A stretch of DNA of 64,000 bases from Paenibacillus sp. sptzw28. Lineage in GTDB: Bacteria > Bacillota > Bacilli > Paenibacillales > Paenibacillaceae. The stretch is taken from contig NZ_CP080545.1 in assembly GCF_019550795.1 (NCBI RefSeq), positions 451,001 to 515,000 of the forward strand. Direction: 5' to 3'. The notes beneath the pieces are model-generated. The model searched no databases. It was not told the DNA's origin and worked only from the letters and a program-made list of their open reading frames with translations. Position numbers and translations under genes: made by a program. Shown one piece after another: positions 790 to 32,761 of the stretch (position 1 is the first letter of the stretch; each line of letters starts with the position of its first letter).

Positions 790-876
790 ATGAAAGGATT
801 TAAAGTCAGCCTTAATCGAATGTACGATTCGATTTATACGGTCTACAGTTGTTGCGCTTATTGCAACTCGTGCTGA
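790..876 (+). CDS. 28-residue cysteine-tailed peptide (leader peptide or RiPP-like precursor)
   Basis: A short reading frame behind an excellent ribosome site (AAAGGAGGTG, 776-785, 4-5 nt before ATG). The product starts MKGFKVSLNRMYDSIYTVYS and ends CCAYCNSC, so four of its last eight residues are cysteine. It lies 115 nt upstream of the decarboxylase-like gene on the same strand. Two readings fit. It may be a ribosomally made precursor modified by the downstream flavoprotein and PLP enzymes. Or it may be a cysteine-sensing leader peptide controlling the operon. I recognise no family. The strong ribosome site and the composition argue against chance. Confidence 0.6.
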   Translation: MKGFKVSLNRMYDSIYTVYSCCAYCNSC

Positions 877-991
877 GTACGATTGGATATGTAATCTCCT
901 TCCGGTTTTTCTTTTGACGAAAATAAAACAGGATTACTTCATCGACCCATATTAGATTTGAACAACTAAAGTGATAATCAAAGGAGACTGC

Positions 992-2497
992 ATGATGAAC
1001 CAGCGGAGGGCCCCTTTATTCGAAGAACTTAAAGCTTTATATGAAAAACAACCTGCCAGTTTTCACGTTCCCGGACATAAATCAGGGCAAGGTTTGGATG
1101 ATCCGATGGAGCTGAACTTCTTTCAACAAGTGATGTCTATTGATTTTGGAACAGGAATATTGGGTTTGGATCGCTTGCATGATCCGAAGGGCTCCGTTAA
1201 AGTAGCACAGGAACTGGCCGCAGCCTGCTTTGGCGCAGATCAGAGTTTTTTCCTTGTGGGCGGAAGCTCGATCGGCAATTTGGCTCTCCTTTTATCGGTT
1301 TGCCGAAACAATGAGCCGATTATTGTACAGAGGAATGTGCATAAATCGGTCATTCATGGTCTTATGCTGGCGGGTGCCAGAGCGGTATTTTTGCCCTCAC
1401 GGTGGGACAAGCACAACGGAGTTGCCTATGGAGTCCGCTTGGAAGATGTGGAAGCCGCATTGAAACAATATCCGGATGCGAAGGGAGTCTTTTTATCCAA
1501 TCCGAATTATTACGGAATGGGAATTGACCTTCGACCGTTCGCCAAGCTGGTTCATGCTTATAACAAGCCACTGCTGGTCGACGAGGCGCACGGGGCTCAT
1601 TACGGATTTCACCCCTCGGTTCCGGCCTCCGCACTTTCCTCCGGTGCGGATGCCGTTATTCAATCAACACACAAGATGCTGACAGCTATGTCGTCGGGAA
1701 GTATGCTCCATGTTCAAGGGAATTTGCTGGACCGGGATTTGATTGCCCAGCGGCTTTCCATGCTTCACACCACCAGTCCATTTTATCCGATTCTGGCTTC
1801 TTTGGACCTGAGCCGCAGACAAATGGCGCTTGAAGGCCGGCAGAGATTGTCGGCGGGATTGAGGACGGTTGAAAAGTTCAGAAGCAGTCTTCGCCGCGAA
1901 ATGCCCTGGTTTCGTCTCATTGGTGATGCTGATGACCCGTTCGATTATGAAACCTTGGATCCATTTAAAATAAGCATCAAAGACGGCACCGGAACGTTAA
2001 CCGGCTTTCAGTTGGAGGCGGAGCTGGCACAGCAGGGATGCATTGTGGAAATGGCCGATTTGCAATACGCGCTTGCCGTTTTCAGTCTCGCTTCAACCGA
2101 AAAGGATGCGGATCGGCTCTTAAGCGCGCTAGAAAATATTTCTCTGCGTTACGGGCTGGAAAAGAAATCGTATCATGACGGGGGGCTGTCAAACTCCATG
2201 TTCGATTTCTCTCCATTTACGGAAATATCCGAAACCTCGGTTATCAGACTTCAGCAAAATGACACGGTCACCGTGCCTTTAGAAGAAGCTTTGCATGCGC
2301 AAGCCGGTGAAATGGTTATCCCCTTTCCCCCCGGAGTTCCATTGATTTACCCGGGCGAGAGAATAAACTCTCAGGTCATTCAAACCATTCGTATGCTCTC
2401 TGCAGCCGGCGCGAGATTTTCGGGCGTGCAGGATGACAGCATGAGAACGGTTCGGATACTTAGCCCTGTAAATGAACGCCTTGTAAGAATCAAATAG
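992..2497 (+). CDS. Orn/Lys/Arg decarboxylase-family PLP enzyme
   Basis: A 501-residue fold-type I PLP enzyme like the Bacillus YaaO/SpeA group. It opens with a substrate-tunnel motif (FHVPGHKSG, about residues 24-32). The core has VDEAHGAHYG (cofactor aspartate and histidine) and STHKMLTA, whose lysine should form the Schiff base. The C-terminal decarboxylase domain ends near IPFPPGVPLIYPGE. Members decarboxylate arginine, lysine or ornithine; the substrate here is unknown. An in-frame GTG at 971 exists, but AAGGAG at 981-986 sets the start at ATG 992. First enzyme of the cluster after the cysteine-rich peptide. A truncated second copy of its 3' end lies at 9602. Confidence 0.85.
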   Translation: MMNQRRAPLFEELKALYEKQPASFHVPGHKSGQGLDDPMELNFFQQVMSIDFGTGILGLDRLHDPKGSVKVAQELAAACFGADQSFFLVGGSSIGNLALLLSVCRNNEPIIVQRNVHKSVIHGLMLAGARAVFLPSRWDKHNGVAYGVRLEDVEAALKQYPDAKGVFLSNPNYYGMGIDLRPFAKLVHAYNKPLLVDEAHGAHYGFHPSVPASALSSGADAVIQSTHKMLTAMSSGSMLHVQGNLLDRDLIAQRLSMLHTTSPFYPILASLDLSRRQMALEGRQRLSAGLRTVEKFRSSLRREMPWFRLIGDADDPFDYETLDPFKISIKDGTGTLTGFQLEAELAQQGCIVEMADLQYALAVFSLASTEKDADRLLSALENISLRYGLEKKSYHDGGLSNSMFDFSPFTEISETSVIRLQQNDTVTVPLEEALHAQAGEMVIPFPPGVPLIYPGERINSQVIQTIRMLSAAGARFSGVQDDSMRTVRILSPVNERLVRIK

Positions 2498-2801
2498 GTT
2501 GGAATGACTTTACCTCTTGCAGACTCTGGCCTTTCGGCCAGGGTTTGCTCGAGCAAAGTAAACAGAATTGGAATGAACCTGATTCACGGATTAACTGTTA
2601 CGAGAGGTGTGTATCACGTAGGCGTTAGCGAACGTTCATGTGTTTATTTTGGTTGGCAGCAGCATGCTCCCGCACGGAAGAACCTGGAGTTGCACCTTGA
2701 AAACCGGATAACGAAAGCGCTGTTTTACAGTTGGCACCTTCATGTCATTTTTTATAGGGGATTAAACGAAGTGAAACGGGAGACGGGAGTGAGATTGGAA
2801 C
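2498..2801. other. Intergenic stretch between decarboxylase and panD
   Basis: 304 bases without a supported gene. A frame on the plus strand is open across it but runs on through panD in another phase and has no recognisable content. CTGGCCTTTCGGCCAG near 2525-2540 forms a short hairpin with no clear T-run. A ribosome-site-like GGGAG lies about 11 bases before the panD start. Confidence 0.5.
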
Positions 2802-3185
2802 ATGGAAAGATTGATGTGCAAAGGCAAAATCCACAGGGCAACGGTAACGGAGGCCGATTTAAACTATGTCGGAAGCATTACGATCGATGCTCTTCTTATG
2901 CGGGAAGCGAACATCCATCCGTATGAAATGGTGCAAATCACGAGCCTCAGAAACGCAACGAGATGGAAGACCTATGCGCTCCCGGGTCCCGAGGGCAGCG
3001 GAAAAATATGTTTGAACGGTCCCCCCGCCCATTTATTTCAACCGGGAGATATCGTTATCATTCTGAGCATGGGTTTGTTTTCCGAAGATGACATTAGAGG
3101 GCTAAGACCTAAAGTAGTGTTTGTAGATGCCGCCAACCGAATCACAGAAGTTCAGGTTCAGCGGATATTTCAACAAGAGGAGTAG
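2802..3185 (+). CDS. panD: Aspartate 1-decarboxylase (pyruvoyl type)
   Basis: A 127-residue PanD. It shows KIHRATVTEADLNYVGSITID, including the Gly24-Ser25 pair at which the proenzyme cleaves itself to make the pyruvoyl cofactor. The second half has the family motif GSGKICLNGPPAHL, then GDIVIILSMG. PanD converts aspartate to beta-alanine, normally for pantothenate. No panB or panC is nearby. Its place among an Orn/Lys/Arg-type decarboxylase, a threonine-synthase-like enzyme and a flavoprotein suggests beta-alanine or a related amine is made for this pathway, which is inference. A terminator follows at 3274. Confidence 0.92.
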   Translation: MERLMCKGKIHRATVTEADLNYVGSITIDALLMREANIHPYEMVQITSLRNATRWKTYALPGPEGSGKICLNGPPAHLFQPGDIVIILSMGLFSEDDIRGLRPKVVFVDAANRITEVQVQRIFQQEE

Positions 3186-3273
3186 GAATATTCGATTTAA
3201 AGCGATGGATAGGCTTGGACAACCGGCGACCATGTCAAACAAGAATTCACGATAATCCGGACGTTAGGAACAG

Positions 3274-3300
3274 GCACCTCTATTCAGAGTGCTTTGTTTT
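3274..3300 (+). terminator. Rho-independent terminator after panD
   Basis: GCACCTCT (3274-3281) pairs with AGAGTGC (3286-3292) with one bulged C and a four-base loop. It is followed by TTTGTTTT. It separates the peptide-decarboxylase-panD unit from the threonine-synthase-like unit. Confidence 0.7.
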
Positions 3301-3401
3301 TGCGTTCTTACTACAACCAAATGTCGAACGATATGGACGGAAATTTCCTTATTGATTAAATCTATATTTAACGGAGAAAATCGACAACAGGAGGGTTACT
3401 C

Positions 3402-4625
3402 TTGAGATTCTTGCTGGCATGTAGAAGCTGCGGAAAACAGATGCCTTTTGCGATAAAGGCAGGCTCCTGCAAATGTGGTGGAACCCTCTTGGTCGCTTAC
3501 GACTTGGAGCGGATCCGACGTACGCTGACTAAAGAAAAGCTGAAAAATCTTCCGGCAACGATGTGGAGATATAACGAGCTTTTGCCTATTGAGAACGAGG
3601 AGAGCATTATCTCACTGGGAGAGGGCTGGACACCGCTTGTTCCTTTAAATATGACGAAGGAAATATTGCCGGGCGGGAAGATATGGGTCAAAAGAGAGGA
3701 ACAGAATCCCACGGGAAGCTTTAAATCAAGAGGGTTTTCGGCAGCTTTATCCATTGCAAACGAGTACGGGATTCGCAAGGTGGCGGTGAACTCTAACGGT
3801 AATGCGGCATCCGCATTAGCCGCTTATGCCGGATATGCGGGAATGGAGGCATACGTGTTTCTTCCACTGGATTGCCCGGGGCTGATCGTCAAGGAATGCA
3901 TGGATTATGGAGCCAGAACCTTTTTGGTGGACGGATTAATTCACGATGCCGGGCGAATTGTCAAGGAAGGCGAGCAAGAACAAGGGTGGTACAATGTCGG
4001 CACGTTGAAAGAGCCCGGAAGAGTCGAAGGGAAAAAGACAATGGGCTTGGAGATCGCCGAGCAGCTGCAGTGGAAATTGCCGGATGTGATCATTTATCCG
4101 ACAGGCGGAGGATCCGGAATTATCGGAATGTGGAACGCATTTTTGCAATTAAAGGAACTGGGTTTCGTCGAGGGTGACCTTCCCCGCATGGTCAGTGTGC
4201 AGGAGCAAGGCTGTCAGCCTCTTGTAGACGCCGTGAGGAATAACGCACAATTTAAACCGCAATGTCATCATGTGTACTCGAGTCCGACCGGCATGAGAGT
4301 GCCAGACCCGCCCGATGGGCAATTGGTCGTTTCGGTTTTGCTTGAATCCGGAGGGACTGCAGTGTCCGTAACGGGAACAGAAATTCAACAAGCCCAGAAA
4401 ATCCTTGGAAAGCAAGGAATTTCGTCTTCGCCAGAGGGCGCTGCCGCTTTGGCTGGGTTATTTCGATTAATCGAACGAAATTTCATACGTTCAACTGATG
4501 AAGTCGTACTATTTAACACGTCACATTCTTTGAAATACTTACCATGGGACTGCATAGGTTTGCCAATAGTCAAGACTTATCGGCATTGGGTTTCCGTCAG
4601 CAGCCCTTCCGAGCTTAGTGTCTGA
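3402..4625 (+). CDS. Threonine synthase-like PLP enzyme with N-terminal zinc ribbon
   Basis: A 407-residue fold-type II PLP enzyme of the threonine synthase / cysteate synthase group. The N terminus carries a ribbon with CRSCGK and CKCGG. Next come GEGWTPLVPL, then NPTGSFKSRGF, whose lysine should bind PLP, then SNGNAASALAAYAGYAG, and the cofactor-phosphate loop PTGGGSGIIGMW. Family enzymes make threonine from O-phosphohomoserine, but relatives use other phospho-amino acids or sulfite. No hom or thrB is nearby, so a specialised beta/gamma-replacement reaction is plausible. The start is TTG 3402 behind CAGGAGGG. First gene of the second transcription unit of the cluster. Confidence 0.8.
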   Translation: MRFLLACRSCGKQMPFAIKAGSCKCGGTLLVAYDLERIRRTLTKEKLKNLPATMWRYNELLPIENEESIISLGEGWTPLVPLNMTKEILPGGKIWVKREEQNPTGSFKSRGFSAALSIANEYGIRKVAVNSNGNAASALAAYAGYAGMEAYVFLPLDCPGLIVKECMDYGARTFLVDGLIHDAGRIVKEGEQEQGWYNVGTLKEPGRVEGKKTMGLEIAEQLQWKLPDVIIYPTGGGSGIIGMWNAFLQLKELGFVEGDLPRMVSVQEQGCQPLVDAVRNNAQFKPQCHHVYSSPTGMRVPDPPDGQLVVSVLLESGGTAVSVTGTEIQQAQKILGKQGISSSPEGAAALAGLFRLIERNFIRSTDEVVLFNTSHSLKYLPWDCIGLPIVKTYRHWVSVSSPSELSV

Positions 4626-4662
4626 ATTTTGACCGGATATAATGAGAGAGCATCAATTTATT

Positions 4663-4694
4663 GGGTAGCAGCAGATATTCTGCTGCTGCTACCC
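4663..4694 (+). terminator. Stem-loop between threonine-synthase-like gene and YitT unit
   Basis: A perfect 12-bp inverted repeat: GGGTAGCAGCAG at 4663-4674 and CTGCTGCTACCC at 4683-4694, with an 8-base loop. Only a weak T-rich tail follows (CATTTATA), so it may attenuate or stabilise the transcript rather than stop it fully. Confidence 0.5.
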
Positions 4695-4754
4695 CATTTA
4701 TACCAGCGGAAAAATTATCGAGCCTGACCGATTTTGAAAGGAGGAGTTATCGTC

Positions 4755-4847
4755 GTGGAAAAAGGGCAGCCGAGACAGTTTTTCCGCAATCCCAAGCAGC
4801 CGAGAACGATATCGTTTATCGTGGCAACTAAAAACACCTCACCATGA
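4755..4847 (+). CDS. Short ORF translationally coupled to the YitT gene
   Basis: A 30-residue frame starting at GTG 4755 behind AAAGGAGGAG (4738-4746). It is basic at the start (KGQPRQFFRNPKQPR) and ends SFIVATKNTSP. Its stop overlaps the YitT start as ATGA at 4844-4847, and the YitT gene has no ribosome site of its own. That arrangement suggests translational coupling. The product is not recognised and may be only a leader. Confidence 0.5.
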   Translation: MEKGQPRQFFRNPKQPRTISFIVATKNTSP

Positions 4848-5680
4848 AGAATCTTATAACCGATATCATTCAAATCATTCTCGGTTCGTTCATCCTCGCG
4901 GTGGGAATGAATAGCTTTGCCATTCCGAATGAATTGGCCGAAGGCGGCGCAATCGGTATTTCGATGGATTTATATTATTTGTTTCAATGGTCCCCGGGAG
5001 TTACCCTTCTGCTGTTAAACGCGGTCCTCGTTTCGATCGGTTATAAATTGCTGGATAAACGGGTCACCTATTATACGATTATCACGATAGCAGCGAACTC
5101 TTTTTTCCTGCTTGTGACAAAGGGGATTGCCGTCTATGCCGGAGAGACGATTTTGGGGACGATATTTGCAGGAGTCTTTATTGGAATTGGAATAGGCATT
5201 ATCATACGCGCGGGCGGAACAACCGGAGGCTCCACTATTTTAGCGAAAATAGCAAACCGGTACTTTGGCTGGAGTATAAGCTATGCTGTGTTATTTTTCG
5301 ATCTGGTGGTTGTATTCGGATCCTATTTCATCATCGGCGCCGAGAAAGTTATGTACACGATTATTTCGCTTTATATCGCCGCCAAGCTGATTGATTTTAT
5401 TGTTGAAGGTCTGAACGCGAGAAAGACGGTTACGATTATTTCCCGCTTCAACCCTGAAATTGCCGATAAGATAAATAAGGAAATCAACAGAGGAGTTACT
5501 ATTTACTCCGCCGGCGGCGAGTATATGAAGGAAGCAAGGGAAGTTTTATATATTGTGATTAAAAAAAAGGAGCTGTTCAAGTTAAAGAAAATCGTTTATG
5601 AAATTGATCATCAAGCATTTGTGGTCATTCATGATGTTCGGGACGTATTCGGACAAGCGAAGTCTCCAGGGAAGGCTTGA
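4844..5680 (+). CDS. YitT-family membrane protein (DUF161 + DUF2179)
   Basis: A 278-residue protein, normal for the family. There are five to six hydrophobic segments in the first 190 residues, with the family glycine motifs GMNSFAIPNELAEGGAIGIS and AGGTTGGSTILAK. A C-terminal soluble domain follows (VTIISRFNPEIADKINKE...GVTIYSAGGEYM...VLYIVIKKKE), which matches DUF2179. The biochemical role of YitT proteins is not established; they are polytopic inner-membrane proteins. Translation probably depends on the upstream 30-residue frame. Its position beside an antiporter suggests transport of a cluster product or precursor. Confidence 0.85.
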   Translation: MKNLITDIIQIILGSFILAVGMNSFAIPNELAEGGAIGISMDLYYLFQWSPGVTLLLLNAVLVSIGYKLLDKRVTYYTIITIAANSFFLLVTKGIAVYAGETILGTIFAGVFIGIGIGIIIRAGGTTGGSTILAKIANRYFGWSISYAVLFFDLVVVFGSYFIIGAEKVMYTIISLYIAAKLIDFIVEGLNARKTVTIISRFNPEIADKINKEINRGVTIYSAGGEYMKEAREVLYIVIKKKELFKLKKIVYEIDHQAFVVIHDVRDVFGQAKSPGKA

Positions 5681-5785
5681 GTGTGAAGGCTGGAAGGCCA
5701 ATCATAAGAGAAGCAATGAGGCGTGACGAATGTAGCCTGTTCACTCGATCCGTATCGAACGTGTAAGAAAGGAGAATGAACTGAT

Positions 5786-7084
5786 TTGAACCATAACCTC
5801 CATTTGTTCTTAGCGGTTGTTACCGCAATCGTTATTGTTATTGTTGCCGCCCGTATTTGCGGAAGTCTATTCGTACGCATCCGTCAGCCAAGAGTAGTAG
5901 GCGAGATGGTCGCCGGGGTTCTGCTAGGACCGACATTTTTCGGGGTTCTCGCTCCTGAACTTCAAGCTTCCATTTTTACATCGGAGGTTAAAAGCACCTT
6001 ATTTGTTCTTAGCAATCTCGGTCTATCGGTGTATATGTTCTTAGTCGGAGCCGAGATGGATCTTCAAAGCTTTAATCGCTCATCCATCCAGAAATCCGGT
6101 TTTCTTGCATCAGCGGGAATTTTTCCGCCATTTATCATGGGTGTGGCAATCGGTTTTTTCCTGTATGATAGTTTCTCTTTTGATGCGATTAATAAAATGA
6201 GTTTTTGTATTTACATGGGGGTCGCTCTCTCCATTACAGCATTTCCAATGATGGCAAGAATTCTGCAAGATGAGGGGTTGGTGAAAACAAAGTTCGGGTC
6301 CTTGACGCTCTTGGCGGCAAGCGTTGACGATGCGGCCGCGTGGTGTTTTTTGGCAGTTGTTACCGCGATGGCCCAGTCTAAAGATATGATTGCCGGTCTG
6401 TACACGGCGGTCGGCGGAGTTTTGTTTGCCTTATTGGTTTTGACTTTAGTGAAGAAGCGGCTAAAAAAAATGAGCGATCGGGTGGAAGCCGCAGGTCAGT
6501 TCTTGCAGCACGACTTCGCCATCATATTGCTGCTAATACTCGGTGCCGCCTGGATAACGGATTATATAGGAATTTACTCTGTGTTTGGAGGATTTATCTT
6601 AGGCTTGGCAATGCCGAGAACACCGGTATTTCAACGGGAAATCCACGGTAAGCTAACCGACTTTGTGGTTGTGCTGTTGCTTCCGCTGTTTTTCGCCTTT
6701 TCTGGTTTAAACGCCGACATTGCTTCCCTTTTCAATATGGGAATTGTGATCCCGTTCTTGTTCATTCTTTTGGCTTCCATACTCGGTAAGTACGGCGGAT
6801 GTACGCTGGCCATGCGGAGGATGGGCTTCACGTGGCGGGAGTCCTCGGCCATCGGGGGACTCATGAATGCAAGAGGATTAATGGAGCTGATTGTTGTGAA
6901 CATCGGGCTTGCTTATGAAATTATTAATCAGGATCTTTACTCTATGCTGGTGCTTATGGCTATTGTCACGACTGCTGCGGCGATGCCTATATTTAACGCA
7001 TCTTTAGGGAATCGCGGCACCATGGCTCAGAATTCAAAGGAAAATCCCACATTCAATTTGGAGGGTAACGCTTCAGCGCCATAA
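5786..7084 (+). CDS. Cation:proton antiporter, CPA2 type
   Basis: A 432-residue integral membrane protein with about 12 predicted hydrophobic segments. Family landmarks are the early PRVVGEMVAGVLLGPTFFG segment, ITAFPMMARIL, and AASVDDAAAWCFLAVV, where the paired aspartates sit in the ion site of Kef/NapA-type exchangers. MNARGLMELIV lies near the end. No RCK/TrkA-N domain is present. It should exchange Na+ or K+ for H+; the ion is not readable. Start at TTG 5786 (AAAGGAG at 5769), since ATG 5776 hits a stop at once. It lies 23 bases before the flavoprotein, probably in one operon. Confidence 0.85.
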   Translation: MNHNLHLFLAVVTAIVIVIVAARICGSLFVRIRQPRVVGEMVAGVLLGPTFFGVLAPELQASIFTSEVKSTLFVLSNLGLSVYMFLVGAEMDLQSFNRSSIQKSGFLASAGIFPPFIMGVAIGFFLYDSFSFDAINKMSFCIYMGVALSITAFPMMARILQDEGLVKTKFGSLTLLAASVDDAAAWCFLAVVTAMAQSKDMIAGLYTAVGGVLFALLVLTLVKKRLKKMSDRVEAAGQFLQHDFAIILLLILGAAWITDYIGIYSVFGGFILGLAMPRTPVFQREIHGKLTDFVVVLLLPLFFAFSGLNADIASLFNMGIVIPFLFILLASILGKYGGCTLAMRRMGFTWRESSAIGGLMNARGLMELIVVNIGLAYEIINQDLYSMLVLMAIVTTAAAMPIFNASLGNRGTMAQNSKENPTFNLEGNASAP

Positions 7085-7107
7085 AACATTATGAGGGGGA
7101 GAAATCA

Positions 7108-8655
7108 TTGAAAAACAAGTTTGACATCGTAATTGCAGGCGGGGGTCCTGGGGGAATCCAACTGGCTTTGACTCTGAAAGAACTGAATGAGCAGTACGGT
7201 ACCGATATTAATTTTGTCATTTTGGAAGCTGAGAAGCATGCAGGTTCCTTTTATAGGAAATTTCCGGTACATGGACAATTGATCAGCAACAACAAATTGT
7301 ATTCCGGCAAGCCTGCGGAGCACCGCTTTACAGAAAGGTTTGATTGGAACAGTTTGCTTACGAAAGAGAAGAAGATCTTGATGCGAAACTACAGCACGGA
7401 TTTTCACCCAAGAAGAGAAGCGTTATTTGATATGATTCAAGATTTGGTGTTGGAGTACCAGCTGCCAATACATTTCGAGACCAAGTGGTTGAATACAAGA
7501 AAGAATGACGAGGGAACTTTTGAGGTGATCACGGATAAGGGCAATTATTACTGCCGTTATTTCATTCTTGCTACGGGCCTTGTTCCGAAAATACCAACCA
7601 TTCCGGGATTGGAACATGTAACAATGTACGAGAATATGCGTGAAAAAGAATACTACAGGGATAAAAGGGTGCTCATTTTAGGCAAGGGTAATAGCGCCAT
7701 GGAGAGCGCGCAGGATATTCTGAACGAAGCAAACCTGATAATGCTGGCCAGCCCCAGTTCGGCACGCCTGGCATACAAAACGCATTATGTCGGCAGCATT
7801 CGTGCAACCAACAGTTGGCTCATTGAGAATTATCAGCTAAAGCATCAAGCAGCGCTTCTCGATTGCCATGTAGTGGACATTCAAAAAAGAGATGACGGCT
7901 ACGATGTGACGGTAACCTACGTGCATGCGCAGAACGAGACTGAAACCTTGTTTTTCAACGAAGTTATTGCGGCTACCGGTTTTAAACCGAATTTTGTGAA
8001 TCTAATGGAAGATTTCAATATTCAAATCATTAATGACAAGTTTCCTTCGATCACCGGGGAATTTGAATCGACCGATGTTTCGAATCTGTTTTTTGCGGGG
8101 GCTCAAACACACGGATTGGATTTTAGAGAGACGTCAAGCGGGTTCATTCATGGATTTCGGTATAATTCAAAAATACTGGCGAATATCTTGATGGAACGCC
8201 TGAATGCGCCTTTAGGTTATCGGAACATTGCAACAAACAAGATTGTGGAGGAAATCCTTCAAGAGCTTAATGAGTCTCCCGATCTCTGGCTGCAGCCGGG
8301 ATTCATTGCCTATATCCTGAAGTATCGTCAGGGACAATGGACGGAAGTAGGATACCGAACCTTGAAGGATTTTAAAGAATGTTCGCTTGATGCGGACGAA
8401 TGCTTGTTGGCAGCAACTCTGGAATACGGGGACATTCATAAATTTGAGGATCCGCTTAGCATTCCGAGAATTCCCGGGGAGCCGTCCGAAAGTGCTCATA
8501 TCCACCCGGTGATTCGTGTACGCAAGGCACATAAAGAGCTGATGAAATACGACTTGGAAGAGCACTTGGAGTCACGATTTACGGATCCGAAGTACACTGC
8601 AGTATTATCCGAATTAATTAAGGGAATTATGAAAGACCATTTTATTCGGGCGTAG
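7108..8655 (+). CDS. FOXRED2/FMO-like FAD- and NAD(P)-dependent oxidoreductase
   Basis: A 515-residue flavoprotein. The FAD Rossmann motif is IVIAGGGPGGIQLAL (about residues 6-20), followed by E39 in VILEAE. A RFDWNSLL segment resembles FOXRED2. The second dinucleotide site is VLILGKGNSAMESA, and the late ATGFKPNF motif is typical of FMO-like monooxygenases. The C-terminal ~150 residues match no domain I know. It could N-hydroxylate an amine or oxidise a peptide side chain; the substrate is unknown. It starts at TTG 7108 behind GAGGGGGA and ends the cluster, with a terminator 70 bases downstream. Confidence 0.75.
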   Translation: MKNKFDIVIAGGGPGGIQLALTLKELNEQYGTDINFVILEAEKHAGSFYRKFPVHGQLISNNKLYSGKPAEHRFTERFDWNSLLTKEKKILMRNYSTDFHPRREALFDMIQDLVLEYQLPIHFETKWLNTRKNDEGTFEVITDKGNYYCRYFILATGLVPKIPTIPGLEHVTMYENMREKEYYRDKRVLILGKGNSAMESAQDILNEANLIMLASPSSARLAYKTHYVGSIRATNSWLIENYQLKHQAALLDCHVVDIQKRDDGYDVTVTYVHAQNETETLFFNEVIAATGFKPNFVNLMEDFNIQIINDKFPSITGEFESTDVSNLFFAGAQTHGLDFRETSSGFIHGFRYNSKILANILMERLNAPLGYRNIATNKIVEEILQELNESPDLWLQPGFIAYILKYRQGQWTEVGYRTLKDFKECSLDADECLLAATLEYGDIHKFEDPLSIPRIPGEPSESAHIHPVIRVRKAHKELMKYDLEEHLESRFTDPKYTAVLSELIKGIMKDHFIRA

Positions 8656-8725
8656 GTTTGGAAAAGGGAGGAGACCGTTCTGATCCGTATGAAGCGTCTA
8701 CTAAGCCAATAGACGGATGCGGCCT

Positions 8726-8758
8726 GCGGGAGCGGCTTGAAGCGCTTCCGCCTTTTTC
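8726..8758 (+). terminator. Rho-independent terminator closing the cluster
   Basis: GCGGGAGCG (8726-8734) pairs, with one wobble, with CGCTTCCGC (8743-8751). CTTTTTCTT follows. It ends the unit that runs from the threonine-synthase-like gene to the flavoprotein. Confidence 0.8.
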
Positions 8759-8802
8759 TTGAAATGTAAAACAGGACGCTATACATTGGTATAAGGAGTT
8801 GA

Positions 8803-9309
8803 ATGATGCACATCCGATTATTAGAAAGCTCAGATGCGGAAATTTACAGAGATATCCTTCTTATGTCGCTTAAGGATAGTCCTGAAGCTTTTCTGACCAC
8901 TTATGAGCTTGAAAAAGAAAAATCAATTGAAATGATACGGAATAATTTAATGCCATCCGATAGTCAATTTACGTTGGGTGCTTTTAATAAAAATAACAGG
9001 TTGGTTGGAATTGTAAGGTTTATCCGGGAAGACAATTTGAAAACAAACCACAAAGGCAGTGTTATTGGCATGTTTGTTTTACCTGAATGGCGCGGACAAG
9101 GAATAGGCAAGGCATTAATGAAACAATTGATTAAAAAAGCAAAAAAATGTGATGGGCTTGAGCGAATTAATTTAACCGTGATCTCAAATAATGATACTGC
9201 CAAGAATCTTTACAGATCAATCGGTTATGAGGTATACGGTTCAGAATGCAATGCTATAAAGACTGATGGACAGTATTGGGACGCAGATTTTATGGTGTTG
9301 ATTATCTAG
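8803..9309 (+). CDS. GNAT-family N-acetyltransferase
   Basis: A 168-residue single-domain acetyltransferase. The acetyl-CoA pyrophosphate loop is WRGQGIGKALM at about residues 94-104, and the C-terminal NDTAKNLYRSIGYEVYG motif is typical. It resembles small-molecule or antibiotic acetyltransferases, but the substrate cannot be named. It follows the cluster terminator by 45 bases and has its own AAGGAG site. Two in-frame ATGs are adjacent at 8803 and 8806. It may serve the cluster (self-protection or tailoring) or be independent. Its base composition is somewhat more AT-rich than its neighbours. Confidence 0.85.
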   Translation: MMHIRLLESSDAEIYRDILLMSLKDSPEAFLTTYELEKEKSIEMIRNNLMPSDSQFTLGAFNKNNRLVGIVRFIREDNLKTNHKGSVIGMFVLPEWRGQGIGKALMKQLIKKAKKCDGLERINLTVISNNDTAKNLYRSIGYEVYGSECNAIKTDGQYWDADFMVLII

Positions 9310-9601
9310 TTTAATCCATCAGAAAAATAGCGGCCGCAGCTAAATTTGGCTCGTTCGTACGCCGGAGCAAGATATTGAGATCCGGCCATAGTCGACTCTC
9401 TTAGGGTGCCTGCTCGCGCAGTGCGCCCATTTTTCATTTTCCCGCTATCGAATATCCAAAAAATCCATTCCGCTATGTCCAAAAAAGCCATCCAAAAAAA
9501 GCAGAACATGGTAAAAGTGATATACACGGCTATACGGCGGCGGTGGCCAATAGCGTCAGCAGCGTGAGCGTTCGCCGGAAGCTTGAGCCCGGCATTTGCG
9601 A
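9310..9601. other. Degraded spacer between GNAT gene and duplicated decarboxylase fragment
   Basis: 292 bases with no supportable gene. A minus-strand frame is open across it but has no recognisable motif. Short AT-rich repeats of ATCCAAAAAA occur between about 9465 and 9500. It probably represents decayed sequence left with the two pseudogenes that follow. Confidence 0.4.
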
Positions 9602-9776
9602 TCTCCATTTACGGAAATATCCGAAATTTCGGTTATCAGGCTTCAGCAAAACTTAATTTACCCGGGTGAGAAAATAAACTTTCAGGTCATTCAAACCATT
9701 CGTATGCTCTCTGCGGCCGGCGCGAGATTTCCGGGTGTGCAGGACGCTAAAATGAGAACAATCCAGATACTAAGCG
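9602..9776 (+). pseudogene. Truncated second copy of the decarboxylase 3' end
   Basis: This stretch repeats the 3' part of the decarboxylase gene at 2210-2460. TCTCCATTTACGGAAATATC is identical in both, and GTCATTCAAACCATTCGTAT is shared further on. Between them 81 nt (27 codons, DTVTVP to PPGVP) have been removed cleanly in frame. The frame is therefore still open (SPFTEISEISVIRLQQN then LIYPGEKINFQ), but it lacks the whole catalytic core. Substitutions between the copies are scattered. This shows an old duplication of the cluster followed by decay. Confidence 0.85.
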
Positions 9777-9795
9777 CTGATTTGCTGCTGCGGAT

Positions 9796-10346
9796 ATGAA
9801 GGGGAATCCGCAACAGTATTTGAGGAAACATATCGGTTACCTGGGTGACGTGAAGGGTAAGAAGATCGCCGTTTTACTCGGGAGCAGCGGTCGCAAAGCG
9901 ATCCCTCTTGCCATATTGGGCGGATTGGTCACCGTCGTCGATATCTCACCCGAGAACCAGCGGTACGCGCTGGAAGTGGCAAGAGAAGCAGGGGTGGAAA
10001 TTGAATATATCGTATCTGACGTATTTGAGATAAACATGGACAAGCTGAAGCATGCCTATGATATCGTCTACCTGGAAGGCGGAATTCTTCATTATTTCGC
10101 AGACCTCGCGCCGTTTGCCCGCATTGTCCACGATTTGTTGAAAGCGGCATGTTTGCGTTGAGCGAACAAGAGGAATTCCCGGATTGTTTACTGCGTTACT
10201 GGACCCTCGGGGAGATTGTCAGCGCAGTGGCCGCCTCCGGATTAGTGATTGAAGAGCTGGTTGAAGAGCCTAGAAGTGAGGGGAGCCGGCTTCTTCCTGG
10301 AAGCATCACGCTTGTCGCGAACAAATACAAGGTCGAGAGAACGTAA
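9796..10346 (+). pseudogene. Class I SAM-dependent methyltransferase, frameshifted and internally deleted
   Basis: The first frame (9796-10161) holds the N-terminal half: GKKIAVLLGSSGRKAIPLAI (SAM loop), then VTVVDISPENQRYAL and IEYIVSDVFEI. At about 10146-10152 the frame is lost after LLKA. The protein continues in the next frame as GMFALSEQ, then EEFPDCLLRYWTLGEIVSAV and LPGSITLVANKY. Family members carry roughly 50 residues between those last two blocks, so an internal deletion is likely too. It directly abuts the decayed decarboxylase copy and is probably non-functional. Confidence 0.8.
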
Positions 10347-14750: not shown

Positions 14751-14834
14751 ATGGAAGTGCACCAGGCTTTGACGCTAATGATTTCATTCGCGACATTGGT
14801 TGTGTTGATACTTTCTTTCCGTAAAAGGAAATAG
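14751..14834 (+). CDS. Putative holin-like toxin (type I toxin-antitoxin family)
   Basis: A 27-residue peptide behind a near-perfect ribosome site (GAAAGGAGGTGATG, ending 5 nt before ATG). It has the layout of the putative holin-like toxin family of Firmicutes: a short N terminus (MEVHQALTLM), one hydrophobic helix (ISFATLVVLILSF) and a basic end (RKRK). Related peptides insert in the membrane and are held down by an antisense RNA. Family membership is by resemblance. An antisense RNA would come from the opposite strand and overlap the 3' hairpins at 14827-14932. Confidence 0.75.
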   Translation: MEVHQALTLMISFATLVVLILSFRKRK

Positions 14835-17169: not shown

Positions 17170-17597
17170 TTCGAGTTTTCTTCACGTAACTTCTCCTCCG
17201 AACCCAACACCATCAAGGAAGCGCTCTTACTTTTGAAGTTTAATATTTCATGGTTTTCAAGAGTCCAACCACATAGTAATTCCCTTTCTTCTTTTACCTT
17301 TTATTATAACTGCAATAAATTAGCATGAGTACATTCTCGATACGTTTTTGCGTGCATGTAACCGGGAATACGCGCATATTTTCAAACATGTCCTGTCTAA
17401 AGGAATGAATAGACAACCAATTATGTCATGTTTTATGACATCTAAATCTGATATTGGTCTTTCGCTGGACAAATTGACTGAATTTTCAGCCGTCTATTTT
17501 ACCTTTTGTCTAATGTCAGTCATGTATTATGGGTGTACCATGTAAGTAAATGTGACGCAAGACGGGTGATACCCAAGATCGGGGAGTGAGGAATGTC
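17170..17597. other. Regulatory gap ahead of the pyrimidine transport operon
   Basis: About 430 bases without a supported gene. It contains the GlnR/TnrA-type site at 17424. Nearby, TTGACT at 17474 and TATTTT at 17495 are a weak promoter pair with 15-bp spacing. A short plus-strand frame at 17348-17545 lacks a ribosome site and was not accepted. Confidence 0.5.
17424..17440. promoter_or_regulatory. GlnR/TnrA-type nitrogen regulator site
   Basis: TGTCA-N7-TGACA matches the consensus TGTNAN7TNACA exactly and extends to 7-bp arms (ATGTCAT/ATGACAT). It lies 174 bases before the start codon of the ABC importer operon. GlnR and TnrA control nitrogen assimilation in Bacilli. Two more exact matches lie at 28402 and 28506 in the same locus. 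Confidence 0.75.
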
Positions 17598-18374
17598 ATG
17601 ACGGAAACGGTTATTCCCGAAATTGAGCTCGATCAGATCAGCATGAAGTTTGGAACCGAAACCTCCGATGTGCTTGCGGTCGGACAGGTCAGCTTAAATA
17701 TCGCCAAAGGCGAGTTTGTCTCTCTTCTGGGCCCTTCGGGCTGCGGCAAGACCACGCTGCTTCGGCTGATGGCCGATCTGATTCAGCCGACGAGCGGCAC
17801 GATTAAGGTCGCCGGCAAGACAGCTAAAGAAGCAAGGCTGGCACAGAAGTACGGCATCGTTTTTCAGAATCCCGTCCTCTACGATTGGAGAAAGGTTAAG
17901 CATAACATTACCCTGCCGCTTGAGCTGATGGGCATCGCAAAGGCCGAAAGACACAGGAAATCCGAGGAATTGCTGGAGCTTGTCGGTCTTCAGGGCTTCG
18001 GAGATAAGTACCCCTGGCAGCTGAGCGGGGGGATGCAGCAGCGTGTAGCCATCGCCAGGGCGCTGTCGATGGAACCGGAAATATTGCTGATGGATGAGCC
18101 TTTCTCAGCGCTCGATGAATTTTCCCGGGAACGCCTGAATGAAGAGCTGTTGTCGATATGGAGCAAGGTGAACAACACCGTTGTTTTTGTAACGCACAGC
18201 ATCCCCGAATCGATCTTCTTGTCCGACAGGGTCTTTGTCCTCTCTCCCCACCCGGGGAGGCTGTCCGCAGTTGTGGACATACCGCTGCCGCGTCCGCGCA
18301 CGAAAGACATGAGGAACAGCGCGGAGTTCTTCCGGCTCATCGCACAAATTCGGGATTGCTTTGAAGGGGTGTAA
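17598..18374 (+). CDS. ABC transporter ATP-binding protein (NitT/TauT type), pyrimidine importer
   Basis: A 258-residue ATPase. Walker A is LLGPSGCGKTTLL, the Q-loop is VFQNPVLYDWRKV, the signature is LSGGMQQR, Walker B is ILLMDEPFSALDEF, and the switch histidine is in FVTHSIPES. The NitT/TauT/SsuB subgroup energises uptake of small organic nitrogen or sulfur compounds. Its place at the head of a pyrimidine-degradation operon points to uracil/thymine or a related base. ATG 17598 (GAGG upstream) was chosen over GTG 17586. The permease gene starts 3 bases after its stop. Confidence 0.9.
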   Translation: MTETVIPEIELDQISMKFGTETSDVLAVGQVSLNIAKGEFVSLLGPSGCGKTTLLRLMADLIQPTSGTIKVAGKTAKEARLAQKYGIVFQNPVLYDWRKVKHNITLPLELMGIAKAERHRKSEELLELVGLQGFGDKYPWQLSGGMQQRVAIARALSMEPEILLMDEPFSALDEFSRERLNEELLSIWSKVNNTVVFVTHSIPESIFLSDRVFVLSPHPGRLSAVVDIPLPRPRTKDMRNSAEFFRLIAQIRDCFEGV

Positions 18375-18377
18375 ACC

Positions 18378-19190
18378 ATGAAGGGCCACAGCATCCGGAA
18401 TCACAGTCGCACACTCCCTATAGTCATATGGGCGGCAGCATTGCTCATTATATGGGAAGCCGTTTCATGGTTTATGCTGCATGTGCTGCATACGCCTCTG
18501 GCCCAGTCCAAGCTGCCATATATCCACGAAGTAGCCCGAGCGTTCGGTGAATACGGCGGCACCCTGCTGAAGGAAGGCGGAGTCACCTTCGCCAATGCCG
18601 GCATGGGGTTTCTGCTTGGCGGCGCTGCCGGCGCACTTCTCGCGATACTAATGAGCGTCTCGAAATGGATCGAGCACCTCACCTTTCCTTATGCCGTCGC
18701 CTCCCAAATGATCCCGATCCTGGGTCTCGCTCCGATCCTCTACGGGATCGTTCACGATGAGCAAGTGGCACGAATTCTGATCGCCGGATACATTACTTTC
18801 TTCCCTGTTGCTTTGAATATGCTGAGAGGACTTCGGAGCGTCAATCCTTCCGCTCTTGAATTGATGTACTCATATGCAGCCAAGCCGTGGGCGGTTTATT
18901 GGAAGCTTCGTTTTCCCGCCTCGCTGCCCGGATTGTTCAGCGGGCTGAAGATCGCTGCGCCGCTGGCTGTCACCGGCGCGATACTCGTTGAGCTCATGGG
19001 CGCCCAGCACGGGATCGGCGTTATTATGCTCCGAAATTTGTACTATGGACCGTCCCATGTGTATATGTTCTGGTCTACCGTATTAGTCGGCGCACTGCTG
19101 GGTGTGTTCAGTTATCTGCTCATAGGTGTGGCGGAGCGGCTGGCAGCCCCTTGGCAGCCCGAGTACCGCAATAGGGGAGGTGGCCGCTGA
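18378..19190 (+). CDS. ABC transporter permease 1 of pyrimidine importer
   Basis: A 270-residue inner-membrane subunit of the SsuC/ThiX type with about six hydrophobic segments. An EAA-like coupling loop (LELMYSYAAKPWAVYWKLRFPASLPGLFSGLKIAAPLAV) contacts the ATPase. The second permease follows with a 1-nt overlap (TGATG), so the two are translated together and should form a heterodimeric channel. Confidence 0.9.
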   Translation: MKGHSIRNHSRTLPIVIWAAALLIIWEAVSWFMLHVLHTPLAQSKLPYIHEVARAFGEYGGTLLKEGGVTFANAGMGFLLGGAAGALLAILMSVSKWIEHLTFPYAVASQMIPILGLAPILYGIVHDEQVARILIAGYITFFPVALNMLRGLRSVNPSALELMYSYAAKPWAVYWKLRFPASLPGLFSGLKIAAPLAVTGAILVELMGAQHGIGVIMLRNLYYGPSHVYMFWSTVLVGALLGVFSYLLIGVAERLAAPWQPEYRNRGGGR

Positions 19191-20095
19191 TGGAAGGAAA
19201 TTCGGCAGGAGAGCGCGCACTCGTGACTCGTTATTCCCCGGATGCGGATACCTCTGCGCCGTCGGCAATTCGGGCGATAGACGGTGAATCGCCTTCCGTA
19301 ATCGCGGCCAATAAGAGACGGAGGCTCAGCGTCGCTCCCGCAATCCGGATCGGGCTTCCGCTCCTGGCGGGCTTGCTGTTCCTGGCTGCATGGCAGCTGC
19401 AGCTGTTTCATTCCCTCTTCAACCTGAAAACCTATCAATTGCCGCTGCCGTCGGCTATCGGAGAAGCGATGGCGGATAATGCGGGCCTTCTCTTATCCTA
19501 TACCGGCTATACGCTTACCGAAGCCGTGCTCGGAATGCTGCTAGGCTCCTTGGCGGGATTCTTCGTTGCTTTGGCAGCAACCGTTTGGCCGAGGTGGGGT
19601 TCAGGCGGAGTGCTGCTAATCGCTTCCCTCAACGCCGTGCCGATCGTAGCGCTCGCTCCAATCATGAACCTGTGGTTCGGCGACGGGATCGGATCAAGAG
19701 TTGCGATCGTTATGGTAAGCACGATGGCGGCCATGGCCATCAATGCGAATAAAGGCATGAACGCGGTTGACCCGCTGGCACTGGATTTAATGCACTCCTA
19801 TGCGGCAACGAAGAGCGAAGTGTTCCGGTATTTGCGTTTTTCCACCAGCCTGCCGTATGTCTTTACCGCCTTGAAAATTAATACGACGGCCAGCATGATC
19901 GGAGCGATCGTCGGCGAGTTTTTCTTCTCGTCCCGGGGACTCGGGTATCTGCTTTCCAACTCGATCAAAGTGGCCAAAATGCCTTTGGGCTGGTCCTGCA
20001 TCGTCGTAGCGGCGGTTGCGGGCGTCATCTTCTATCTCCTTATGGAACGACTTGAGAAATTGTTCATTCGCTGGCATCCTTCGCAGAGAACATGA
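19190..20095 (+). CDS. ABC transporter permease 2 of pyrimidine importer
   Basis: A 301-residue membrane subunit homologous to the preceding permease. It has an extra polar N terminus of about 50 residues before the first membrane segment (LPLLAGLLFLAAWQL). The coupling loop reads LDLMHSYAATKSEVFRYLRFSTSLPYVFTALKI. Two different permeases in tandem are usual for this importer subgroup. The stop is followed by 160 bases before the binding-protein gene. Confidence 0.9.
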   Translation: MEGNSAGERALVTRYSPDADTSAPSAIRAIDGESPSVIAANKRRRLSVAPAIRIGLPLLAGLLFLAAWQLQLFHSLFNLKTYQLPLPSAIGEAMADNAGLLLSYTGYTLTEAVLGMLLGSLAGFFVALAATVWPRWGSGGVLLIASLNAVPIVALAPIMNLWFGDGIGSRVAIVMVSTMAAMAINANKGMNAVDPLALDLMHSYAATKSEVFRYLRFSTSLPYVFTALKINTTASMIGAIVGEFFFSSRGLGYLLSNSIKVAKMPLGWSCIVVAAVAGVIFYLLMERLEKLFIRWHPSQRT

Positions 20096-20255
20096 TGCAG
20101 TATGAATGAAACGGACTCTGCACAGCCGGCTGAGCGTGAGACAGATACACAAGTTTGCGCGGCCGATCTCATATCTCATATCTCATATACCCGTGCACAA
20201 TTGGCACTACGCTGTGTTTCAAACATTATTACGGATCAAGAGGGAGAGAGAATCG

Positions 20256-21359
20256 ATGGAGAAAAAGAAACCGAAATACCGAAGGGCCATGCTGTTAGCC
20301 GTAGCCATGCTGTTTGCAACCGTGCTCGCCGCATGCGGCGGCTCGAACGGGAACACCAAGACAGACGAGCCTGCTGCAGCGAACGCGGCAGGAGGAACGA
20401 ATGAGCAGGCGGCCGGTGCGAATAAGAGTGCGGATCCGGTGACGGTCAAGCTGCAGCTCAAATGGGTGCCTCAGGCTCAGTTTGCCGGTTATTACGTCGC
20501 CCTGGACAAAGGCTATTACAAAGACGAAGGGCTGTCGGTTCAAATTCTGCCCGGCGGACCGGATATCGTGCCGGAGCAGCAGGTGGCGAATGGGGCTGCC
20601 GATATCGGAATAGACTGGGTGGCCAGCCTCCTGGCACATCAGGAGCAGGGACTCCCGCTTGTCGAGATTTCGCAAATCTATCAGAAGAGCGGGCTGGTGC
20701 TTGTCTCTAAGAAATCGGCCGCAATCAACTCGCCAGCCGACCTGAAGGGCAAGAAGGTCGGGAACTGGATGGGCGGGAACGAATTCGAGGTGCTGGCTCT
20801 ATTCGACAAATACAAGCTGGACCCGAATAAGGATCTCCAGTTCGTGAAGCAGGGCTTTACGATGGATCAGTTCCTCGGCGGGGAATTGGATGCGGCTTCC
20901 GCTATGACCTACAACGAATACCAGGTGGTGCTCGAGCAAGGGATACCGGAGAAGGATCTTTCGGTTATCGATATGAACAAAGAAGGCGTCGCCATGCTGG
21001 AGGATAACCTGTTTGCGAACAAAGATTGGCTGGCTGCCAATAAGGAGACGGCCGCGAAATTTATCAGGGCCTCGCTCAAGGGCTGGAAGGATGCGATTGC
21101 AGACCCCGAGGCGGCAGTGGACAGCGTCATGAAGGTAGCCGAGGAAGGCAGCACATCCCGGGCTCATCAGCTGAAGATGATGGAGGAGGTTGCCAAGCTT
21201 GTCGCGCCTGAAGGCTTCGATACCGCGAAGCTCGGTTACATCGACGATGCCATGTTCAAGCAAACGGCCGATATTGCACTGAAATTCGGCGTTATCAAGA
21301 AAGCTGCCGACCTCAAAGAGGCGTACACGAATGAAATCGTGGATATGGCGATGAAATAA
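20256..21359 (+). CDS. NMT1/THI5-like substrate-binding lipoprotein of pyrimidine importer
   Basis: A 367-residue lipoprotein. The signal peptide (KKKPKYRRAMLLAVAMLFAT) ends in the lipobox VLAAC. An Ala/Asn/Gly-rich linker leads to the binding domain, which starts VKLQLKWVPQAQFAGYYVAL and continues GGPDIVPEQQVANGAADIGI, typical of NMT1/THI5-type pyrimidine-precursor binders. It delivers the ligand to the two permeases. A longer frame extends back to 20106, but AGGGAGAG at 20241 and the signal peptide set the start at 20256. The ligand is inferred to be a pyrimidine base from the operon. Confidence 0.9.
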   Translation: MEKKKPKYRRAMLLAVAMLFATVLAACGGSNGNTKTDEPAAANAAGGTNEQAAGANKSADPVTVKLQLKWVPQAQFAGYYVALDKGYYKDEGLSVQILPGGPDIVPEQQVANGAADIGIDWVASLLAHQEQGLPLVEISQIYQKSGLVLVSKKSAAINSPADLKGKKVGNWMGGNEFEVLALFDKYKLDPNKDLQFVKQGFTMDQFLGGELDAASAMTYNEYQVVLEQGIPEKDLSVIDMNKEGVAMLEDNLFANKDWLAANKETAAKFIRASLKGWKDAIADPEAAVDSVMKVAEEGSTSRAHQLKMMEEVAKLVAPEGFDTAKLGYIDDAMFKQTADIALKFGVIKKAADLKEAYTNEIVDMAMK

Positions 21360-21543
21360 AGAAGTAGGGATTAAAAAACGGAGCGAACCGGGGAGATTCC
21401 GGAGAAACGAAGTGACCGCCTTTGTCCGCGGGAATTTCATCATTAGAGGGTTCATTATATAAGGAAATCTGGGGAAAACAGCGATCGAAAGAACGTTCCG
21501 CACGCGCAGTGAGAGCTTATACGTGAATCCGAAAGGAGTGTGA

Positions 21544-22428
21544 ATGATGGATACGGTAAGGATCGGTCTCATTCAAGCGCAGCATGACGTGAACGGCGAG
21601 GAGCCGGTAGAGAAACACAAGGCGGCGGCGATCCGGAAGCATATGGGGCTGGTGCGCGAAGCGAAGAAGCAGGGCGCCCAGATCGTATCCCTGCAGGAAA
21701 TCTTCTACGGACCCTATTTCTGTGCTGAGCAGACCGCCAAATGGTATGAGGCGGCGGAGGAGATTCCGAACGGTCCTACAACCAAGCTGTTTCAGGAGCT
21801 CGCCAAGGAGCTTGGCATCGTCATCGTCCTGCCGATTTACGAACGAGAGGGTATTGCCACCTATTACAATACGGCAGCGATGATCGATGCGGACGGAGCC
21901 TATTTGGGTAAATACCGGAAACACCACATTCCCCATGTTGGAGCGGGCAGCCGAGGCTGCGGATTTTGGGAGAAGTATTATTTTAAACCGGGCAACCTGG
22001 GATATCCGGTCTTCGATACGGCGTTTGCCAAGGTGGGCGTCTACATCTGCTACGACAGGCATTTCCCGGAGGGCGCGAGAATGCTAGGTCTGAACGGCGC
22101 GGAAATCGTCTTCAACCCCTCCGCCACCGTGTCGGGCACCTCCGAATATTTGTGGAAGCTGGAGCAGCCTGCCCATGCGGTAGCCAACGGCTACTACATA
22201 GGCGCGATCAACCGCGTGGGCTATGAAGCGCCGTGGCATATGGGCGAGTTCTACGGCCAATCATATTTGGCCGATCCGCGGGGAAGCATTGTCTCAATCG
22301 GCAGCCGCGACCGAAGCGAAGTTGTGATCGGGGATATGAGTAAAGCCCTGATTCGTGAAGTCCGTGAAAGCTGGCAGTTCTATAGGGACCGCAGGCCTGA
22401 GACGTACCGGGAGCTTACTGAGCTTTAA
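21544..22428 (+). CDS. Nitrilase-family beta-ureidopropionase (N-carbamoyl-beta-alanine amidohydrolase)
   Basis: A 294-residue carbon-nitrogen hydrolase. The catalytic triad is visible: Glu52 (QEIFYG), Lys126 (YRKHHIP) and Cys169 (ICYDRHFPE). CYDRHFPEGAR and the SATVSGTSEYLWKLEQPAHAVAN block are typical of the beta-ureidopropionase branch. It would split N-carbamoyl-beta-alanine to beta-alanine, CO2 and NH3, the third step of reductive pyrimidine breakdown. The ribosome site is GAAAGGAGTGTGA. A second, unrelated enzyme that could do the same step lies at 28590. Confidence 0.85.
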   Translation: MMDTVRIGLIQAQHDVNGEEPVEKHKAAAIRKHMGLVREAKKQGAQIVSLQEIFYGPYFCAEQTAKWYEAAEEIPNGPTTKLFQELAKELGIVIVLPIYEREGIATYYNTAAMIDADGAYLGKYRKHHIPHVGAGSRGCGFWEKYYFKPGNLGYPVFDTAFAKVGVYICYDRHFPEGARMLGLNGAEIVFNPSATVSGTSEYLWKLEQPAHAVANGYYIGAINRVGYEAPWHMGEFYGQSYLADPRGSIVSIGSRDRSEVVIGDMSKALIREVRESWQFYRDRRPETYRELTEL

Positions 22429-32758: not shown

Positions 32759-32761
32759 GCC

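Follow-up and report, generated by a model that had tools for sequence, protein, structure and literature searches.

Seven plus-strand genes lie close together near one end of a 64,000-nucleotide (nt) stretch of Paenibacillus sp. sptzw28 (NZ_CP080545.1, a single contig of 6.1 Mb, positions 451001-515000; hereafter the window). They encode a 28-residue cysteine-tailed peptide, a pyridoxal phosphate (PLP)-dependent Orn/Lys/Arg-type decarboxylase, a second aspartate-decarboxylase-like protein (PanD*), a threonine-synthase-like enzyme (ThrC*), a YitT-family protein, a CPA2-type antiporter and a flavoprotein. Do these genes belong to one pathway? The original prediction, drawn from the letters alone, proposed that the enzymes build or tailor a specialised metabolite, possibly on or together with the peptide, with the membrane proteins for export. 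At a probability of about 0.6, we favour a patchwork, in which module A (panD*-thrC*), taken from a PanD*-ligase gene set of Bacilli, adjoins module B (antiporter and flavoprotein), of the kind found in nonribosomal peptide synthetase/polyketide synthase (NRPS/PKS)-type clusters. Two conserved and little-described modules would thus meet in one interval. This reading rests on paralogy, subfamily signatures, gene linkage, an upstream motif and a structural class, from which we infer substrates, ligation, sporulation timing and any joint action.

Conservation of the seven genes

The seven open reading frames (ORFs) were found on the plus strand at or near the positions first proposed for them, and hidden Markov model (HMM) scans of ten window ORFs gave family matches for six of the seven, the peptide being the exception. 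The expectation that the genes are kept together fared differently: none of the 196 other genomes of the family examined carries the set, so that the neighbourhood comparison speaks against the set as a whole, and a single conserved seven-gene cluster was rejected because no second genome has it. A search of the 197 family genomes with E up to 1e-40 found the flavoprotein in its own genome only, and so did a search of 22 genomes of the genus. None of 21 loci of flavoprotein relatives, which were found by alignment of relatives and are in some cases just 3-10 kb long, encodes the decarboxylase, panD, thrC, yitT or the peptide. The flavoprotein, decarboxylase, yitT and peptide are absent from all 22 other thrC* loci, of which the family and the class each gave 11, and from 16 further PanD* loci; one of the 22 encodes a distant (27%) CPA2 protein. 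Since the partners of the conserved modules differ elsewhere, a single joint metabolite is not indicated. What stands of the single-pathway proposal is the divergent panD and the conserved gene pairs; the joint pathway and the link to the peptide have no comparative support. A plasmid search returned one unannotated record, 33% identical, and was uninformative.

PanD* and ThrC*

The genome has two panD genes. The copy at 4.075 Mb scores 186 bits and adjoins panC- and panB-like genes, as judged by eye, whereas the window copy scores 147 bits and is not linked to panB/panC. The window gene is consequently not the only panD of the genome, a possibility raised by the original prediction, but a second, divergent copy beside a canonical one. 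PanD* exceeds the TIGR00223 cut-off over its full length (124.1 bits against 106) and retains the Gly-Ser self-cleavage site (YVGSITI) and the equivalents of Arg54 and Tyr58 (RWKTY), which we take to have the functional roles assigned to them in PanD. It differs from canonical PanD in having NGPPA in place of NGAAA and SLRNATRWKTY in place of NNNNGxRxETY, and in lying outside a panB-panC context, where the canonical gene was found in 3/3 loci inspected by eye. Among the closest 120 of 6110 matches, the window protein included, GPPA is present in all 120, the Arg54-equivalent in 114 and the Gly-Ser site in at least 116; the names among them include Paenibacillus, Brevibacillus, Ammoniphilus, Piscibacillus, Filobacillus and Neobacillus. 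In 388 genomes of the class, 34 (own included) score at least 179 bits and the next score is 164; the group at or below 164 bits is presumed to be canonical PanD. Judged by sequence, PanD* is a Bacilli subfamily distinguished by its NGPPA loop, and the other 119 proteins listed, many unnamed and where named called aspartate 1-decarboxylase, are probably not the vitamin enzyme.

The pairing of this panD with a threonine-synthase-like gene proved to be conserved in several families. Within the 197 family genomes, PanD* occurs in 12 and ThrC* (at least 57% identity) in 11, with both in 10 (Fisher 4e-14); ten of the 11 genomes chosen for ThrC* have both panD copies and the remaining one (G171) the canonical copy only. 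The 11 family thrC* loci outside the window have an intact panD* in nine cases, a degenerate one in one and none in one. In the class loci, panD* lies beside thrC* in five of 11 (one cut by a contig end), and the six without it all belong to one family; in four of these six a ligase gene of the type described below adjoins thrC*. The pair is divergent in 12 of 14 cases and convergent in two, and in the window both genes run the same way.

ThrC* belongs to the PALP fold family and exceeds the PRK08197 cut-off (457.7 bits against 303), but it falls below that of the TIGR00260 thrC model (153 bits against 167.1). It retains the PLP lysine motif and has SFK(S/A)RG, SNGNA and YPTGGGSG where threonine synthase 1uim has SFKDRG, STGNT and PVGNAGN, the last two of which presumably hold the substrate phosphate. 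An outgroup protein (L080, 43%) largely shares these changes, which therefore mark a wider group. No ThrC* homolog was found at 1e-90 in 172/197 family genomes, so a housekeeping function is unlikely.

Linkage of PanD* to YheC/D-type ligases

In most PanD* loci examined, a neighbour is of the spore-associated YheC/YheD ATP-grasp family (PF14398; 177-184 bits in the three tested). Such a gene is no more than 2 kb from PanD* in 26/31 loci, a count that includes a degenerate panD* (L079) and an ATP-grasp remnant (L165) and whose five misses include a contig end (L121); without these three loci it becomes 24/28. Of the 31 loci, 16 were fetched for lacking thrC*, and 13 of these 16 show the linkage; it was also seen in 10/10 held-out loci, which comprise two family genomes and eight of one genus. 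These locus counts leave out five PanD* genomes of the class set, and a search for held-out loci within one family turned up no further PanD* loci. Since PanD* can be found together with the ligase where ThrC* is absent, its substrate need not come from ThrC*. The best reading of PanD*, a paralog of the pyruvoyl decarboxylase, is that it produces beta-alanine or a closely similar beta-amino compound for use by a sporulation ligase; the product would be passed to the neighbouring YheC/D-type enzyme, probably in the sporulating mother cell, and ThrC* may be an auxiliary PLP enzyme that provides a further building block. No reaction for the YheC/D family was found in the titles and abstract beginnings of the literature searched, and the linkage offers a testable substrate (beta-alanine or an analog) and timing (mother cell) for this ligase family.

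The genome itself holds nine PF14398-type matches, and the nearest relative of the PanD*-linked ligases, at 1.877 Mb, is the last of six same-strand genes (about 1.871-1.878 Mb; L189:3187-9913). Their order is a KamA-family radical S-adenosylmethionine (SAM) protein, a YheC/D protein, phosphoenolpyruvate (PEP) mutase, phosphonopyruvate decarboxylase, 2-aminoethylphosphonate (AEP) aminotransferase and the second YheC/D protein. The three phosphonate enzymes each exceed an NCBIfam equivalog cut-off, and the KamA-like protein exceeds the general KamA model only. AEP is the phosphonate analog of beta-alanine. The run is possibly a phosphonate-ligase pathway and, as one instance, points the same way, to small beta-amino compounds beside YheC/D ligases.

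Upstream motif and possible sporulation timing

One report (PMC517825) places the B. subtilis genes yheC and yheD in the sigmaE regulon, with upregulation by SpoIIID. We scanned the 160 nt upstream of PanD* with four sigma-factor consensus models. With the two mother-cell models, a sigK-like score of at least 7 was obtained for 21/29 regions against 48/323 controls, and a sigE-like score of at least 11 for 18/29 against 102/323. The forespore sigG model was not raised (mean 8.66 against 8.76 in controls), the sigA model was slightly higher (8.28 against 7.92), and upstream of thrC* the values were near the control level (sigE 9.9 against 10.06, sigK 6.1 against 5.74). The pattern CATANNNT, which we take to have the shape of a mother-cell -10 element, is present within 90 nt upstream of PanD* in 24/29 loci and in 10/10 held-out loci; it occurs upstream of 26/252 other ORFs of the same loci, and shuffles gave a mean of 2.5 and a maximum of 9 (n=2000).

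These observations suggest, tentatively and at less than even odds, a sporulation pathway of Bacilli with its own enzymes for small beta-amino acids or analogs, which YheC/D ligases would attach to a spore component, and with a displaced piece of it in the window. Its sources, covered by the same tentative estimate, would be beta-alanine made by PanD*, AEP made by the PEP mutase, decarboxylase and aminotransferase, and possibly a beta-amino acid made by the KamA-like mutase. No description of such a pathway was found in the titles and abstract beginnings searched.

The antiporter-flavoprotein pair

An antiporter gene, 45-61% identical, lies directly upstream of the flavoprotein gene in 7/7 Bacilli loci (Laceyella, Priestia, B. 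haikouensis, Hazenella, Rossellomorea, Cytobacillus and Paenibacillus sp. JCM 10914), and all seven have large ORFs (1634-2722 residues, two cut by the end of the stretch) within 10 kb. HMM scans confirmed condensation, adenylation and carrier domains in two of the loci, those of Priestia and Cytobacillus. They also confirmed, for Priestia, a PLP decarboxylase and a nitroreductase; for Cytobacillus, a ketoacyl synthase; for B. haikouensis, a phosphopantetheinyl transferase; for Hazenella, AMP-binding and thiamine pyrophosphate (TPP) enzymes; and for Paenibacillus sp. JCM 10914, an ornithine cyclodeaminase-family protein. The NRPS/PKS-type character of the remaining loci was assigned by eye. 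The pair is a recurrent element of Bacilli NRPS/PKS-type clusters, and no description of it was found in titles and abstract beginnings. Tailoring and transport, the roles first proposed for these proteins, are supported by this context; the seven-gene pathway is not. In Paenibacillus sp. JCM 10914 (L013:8673-11538), the antiporter and the flavoprotein are each split into two frames, by sequencing error or decay. In Bradyrhizobium and an Oscillospiraceae genome (L012:9112-14232, L014:9125-18193), the flavoprotein has an amidohydrolase on one side and a radical SAM protein on the other, and ATP-grasp proteins are near.

The AlphaFold model of the flavoprotein (predicted local distance difference test, 83) is closest to YpdA, with a template modelling (TM) score of 0.82 by target and 0.53 by query, and also resembles putrescine N-hydroxylase (7us3; TM 0.50 by query); all share a two-Rossmann flavoprotein fold. 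The cysteine of the GGGPCG motif, visible in the 7a7b and 7a76 alignments and presumably the active-site residue of YpdA, is absent from 27/27 flavoproteins (Gly in 25, Ala in two), and a YpdA-type reductase was rejected on this ground. The window protein also differs from YpdA/Bdr, the bacillithiol disulfide reductase, in about 145 extra C-terminal residues, a region that extends beyond the matches to both YpdA and putrescine N-hydroxylase. The likeliest role of the flavoprotein is oxidation of an amine- or carrier-derived intermediate. The antiporter, in which PF00999 was the only domain found, has no detected C-terminal regulatory domain, in contrast with Kef-type CPA2 systems, which carry a TrkA/KTN domain; it may serve export or protection.

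The decarboxylase and its relic

Orn/Lys/Arg-type decarboxylases occur in 197/197 family genomes, and the window protein is one of three family matches in its own; the best listed full-length match in the 196 other genomes is 50% identical. By eye, a tmk-like gene adjoins the decarboxylase gene in five inspected loci of other genomes and at the 0.254 Mb copy of this genome. These housekeeping enzymes, which we take to be YaaO-like, are of the same family and about 39-50% identical to the window protein over the full length, whereas the window copy is extra, is not beside tmk and has a relic of its own 3' end downstream. The start is more likely ATGATG at 992-997 than GTG at 971, the ATG at 992/995 having by eye the better ribosome site. 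About 80 nt are missing between the two relic pieces, which indicate that a partial second copy of the gene once lay there. The 2469-9601 segment lies between the decarboxylase 3' part and the relic, and both modules lie in it with neither ligase nor NRPS in the window; one way in which this may have arisen is that a duplicated gene received an insertion. Directly after the relic, at 9796-10346 (plus strand), lies an apparently frameshifted methyltransferase-like gene in two overlapping frames, of which a search of the other fetched loci gave no copy.

Weighing the patchwork against its alternatives

Several observations weigh against the patchwork and the ligase proposal. There is no ATP-grasp gene in the window or in the 40 kb upstream, although most other PanD* loci have one, and none of the seven window genes has CATANNNT in the 90 nt before it; since ligase and motif are both missing, module A may be incomplete, re-purposed or decaying. 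The motif precedes thrC* in just 5/20 cases, its pattern was fixed after the sequences had been viewed, eight of the ten held-out loci come from one genus, and many of the control ORFs may lie inside genes. The PanD*-linked ligases form two tree groups plus an outlier, groupings stated without branch support values. The phosphonate run is a single case in the genome, CATANNNT is absent from the 120 nt before each of its six genes, and by eye no genes for making amines adjoin YheC/D genes in three other regions of the genome. Of the 22 ThrC* loci outside the window, seven have no panD*, and in 4/4 non-Bacilli loci of the closer group the flavoprotein has no adjacent antiporter.

If the interval were instead one strain-specific, recently assembled cluster, the decarboxylases, ThrC* and the flavoprotein would build a small amine-containing metabolite that the YitT protein and the antiporter export. 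The tight same-strand packing fits this, as do the biosynthetic-looking clusters around flavoprotein relatives, with a nearby PLP decarboxylase confirmed in two (L005, L014), and the guanine-plus-cytosine (GC) content of yitT (43%) and the flavoprotein gene (44%), which is below that of the four flanking genes (51-56%), the interval genes together spanning 36-50%, though the window as a whole has 49%. We nevertheless consider such a cluster unlikely: its parts are separated by hairpins, the set recurs in no second genome, and the interval has no carrier, ligase or NRPS gene. For module B alone, a stress or self-protection device rather than a biosynthetic step, by analogy with KefC and its flavoprotein helper, appears unlikely as well. 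Its constant adjacency in Bacilli and the presence of the YpdA thiol reductase among the closest solved folds would suit it, but the YpdA cysteine and a detectable regulatory domain are lacking and the closer non-Bacilli relatives have no antiporter beside them.

A taurine-type route, in which ThrC* would act as cysteate synthase and PanD* would decarboxylate cysteate to taurine before ligation, draws on taurine being an analog of beta-alanine and AEP and on a weak match of ThrC* to the cysteate synthase model TIGR03844, of the same PALP fold family. That match, at 74.2 bits, is far under the cut-off of 324.9, and 13 of the 16 loci fetched for lacking ThrC* have PanD* and ligase; on these two grounds the route was rejected as the main explanation, and it seems very improbable. 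As PanD* does not depend on a ThrC* product, beta-alanine from aspartate is preferred. Improbable, too, is the idea that the peptide is the precursor of a ribosomally synthesised and post-translationally modified peptide (RiPP) or a cysteine-sensing leader that controls the decarboxylase. Its ribosome site (AAGGAGG, 7 nt before the ATG) and its Cys-rich tail directly upstream of the decarboxylase invite this view, but no relative above chance was found in the 197 family genomes, and the DNA pattern for CCAYCNSC-stop with two mismatches gave seven matches outside the genome against 10 for a reversed control. The peptide matches no family in the HMM scans, and none of the ten ORFs scanned encodes a RiPP maturation enzyme. 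A Cys-codon attenuator was rejected, since the RNA has no attenuator-like fold (z -0.01) and no Rfam leader lies there, the one weak Rfam match being elsewhere and below its gathering score. The proposed role of the peptide as substrate or partner of the enzymes thus found no backing; it may be a real small protein, and its tie to the decarboxylase is one of proximity only.

Transcription units and other features

The hairpins suggest three units (peptide-decarboxylase, panD-thrC and yitT-cpa2-fmo) rather than the two terminator-bounded units first described. Of the three unit-end hairpins, the one after the flavoprotein alone carries a T run and was detected by the terminator scan. That scan gave 18 terminator-like sites where 9.6 were expected; the promoter-like matches (14 against 14.5 expected) did not exceed chance. 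The strong ribosome sites ascribed to all seven genes hold for the peptide, but not uniformly, since the panD site is weak by eye. The features are collected in Table 1.

Table 1. Positions in the window of the seven genes, the unit-end hairpins and the decarboxylase relic
Feature	Positions	Strand	Evidence
28-residue peptide MKGF...CCAYCNSC, two CxxC spacings, orphan	790-876	+	ORF, ribosome site
Orn/Lys/Arg-type PLP decarboxylase (OKR_DC_1), extra paralog	992-2497	+	PF01276, 250 bits
Hairpin 3' of decarboxylase	2519-2548	+	Strong fold, z -6.2, no T run
PanD*, second aspartate-decarboxylase-like protein, NGPPA loop	2802-3185	+	PF02261, 148 bits; TIGR00223
ThrC*, PALP-family enzyme, N-terminal zinc-ribbon-like cysteines (by eye)	3402-4625	+	PRK08197, family alignment
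Hairpin between ThrC* and yitT	4663-4694	+	Strong fold, z -4.5, no T run
YitT-family membrane protein with DUF2179	4844-5680	+	HMM match
CPA2-type cation/proton antiporter	5786-7084	+	PF00999, 185 bits; TIGR00932, 136 bits against cut-off 238
YpdA/monooxygenase-like NAD(P)H flavoprotein (Pyr_redox_3), extra C-terminal region about 371-515	7108-8655	+	HMM, model
Intrinsic-terminator-like hairpin with T run, 3' of flavoprotein	8726-8751	+	Terminator scan; fold ordinary, z -0.45
Relic of decarboxylase 3' end	9602-9779	+	50 nt 94% identical to 2210-2259; 127 nt 86% identical to 2342-2468

A 30-codon GTG ORF at 4755-4847 (plus strand) has a strong ribosome site, and its stop overlaps the yitT start (ATGA), as in a possible coupled leader. 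The window has two ATG ORFs of 20-60 codons with a ribosome site like that of the 28-residue peptide, whose own ORF is one of them; 200 mononucleotide shuffles gave 0.3 on average and 3 at most. A 27-residue ORF with an AAGGAGG site at 14751-14834 (plus strand) matches Hol_Tox, a holin-like toxin family, at 34 bits (cut-off 23) and more weakly ComI at 29 bits (below the cut-off of 55); it is possibly a type I toxin gene. Further downstream, 17586-34189 is mostly plus-strand, with minus-strand ORFs at 26667-29900, and encodes an ATP-binding cassette (ABC) transporter, a nitrilase-like amidase, a coenzyme A (CoA)-acylating semialdehyde dehydrogenase, a class III aminotransferase, alanine dehydrogenase and further oxidoreductases. 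These genes, 14 kb from panD*, might serve pyrimidine/beta-alanine catabolism.

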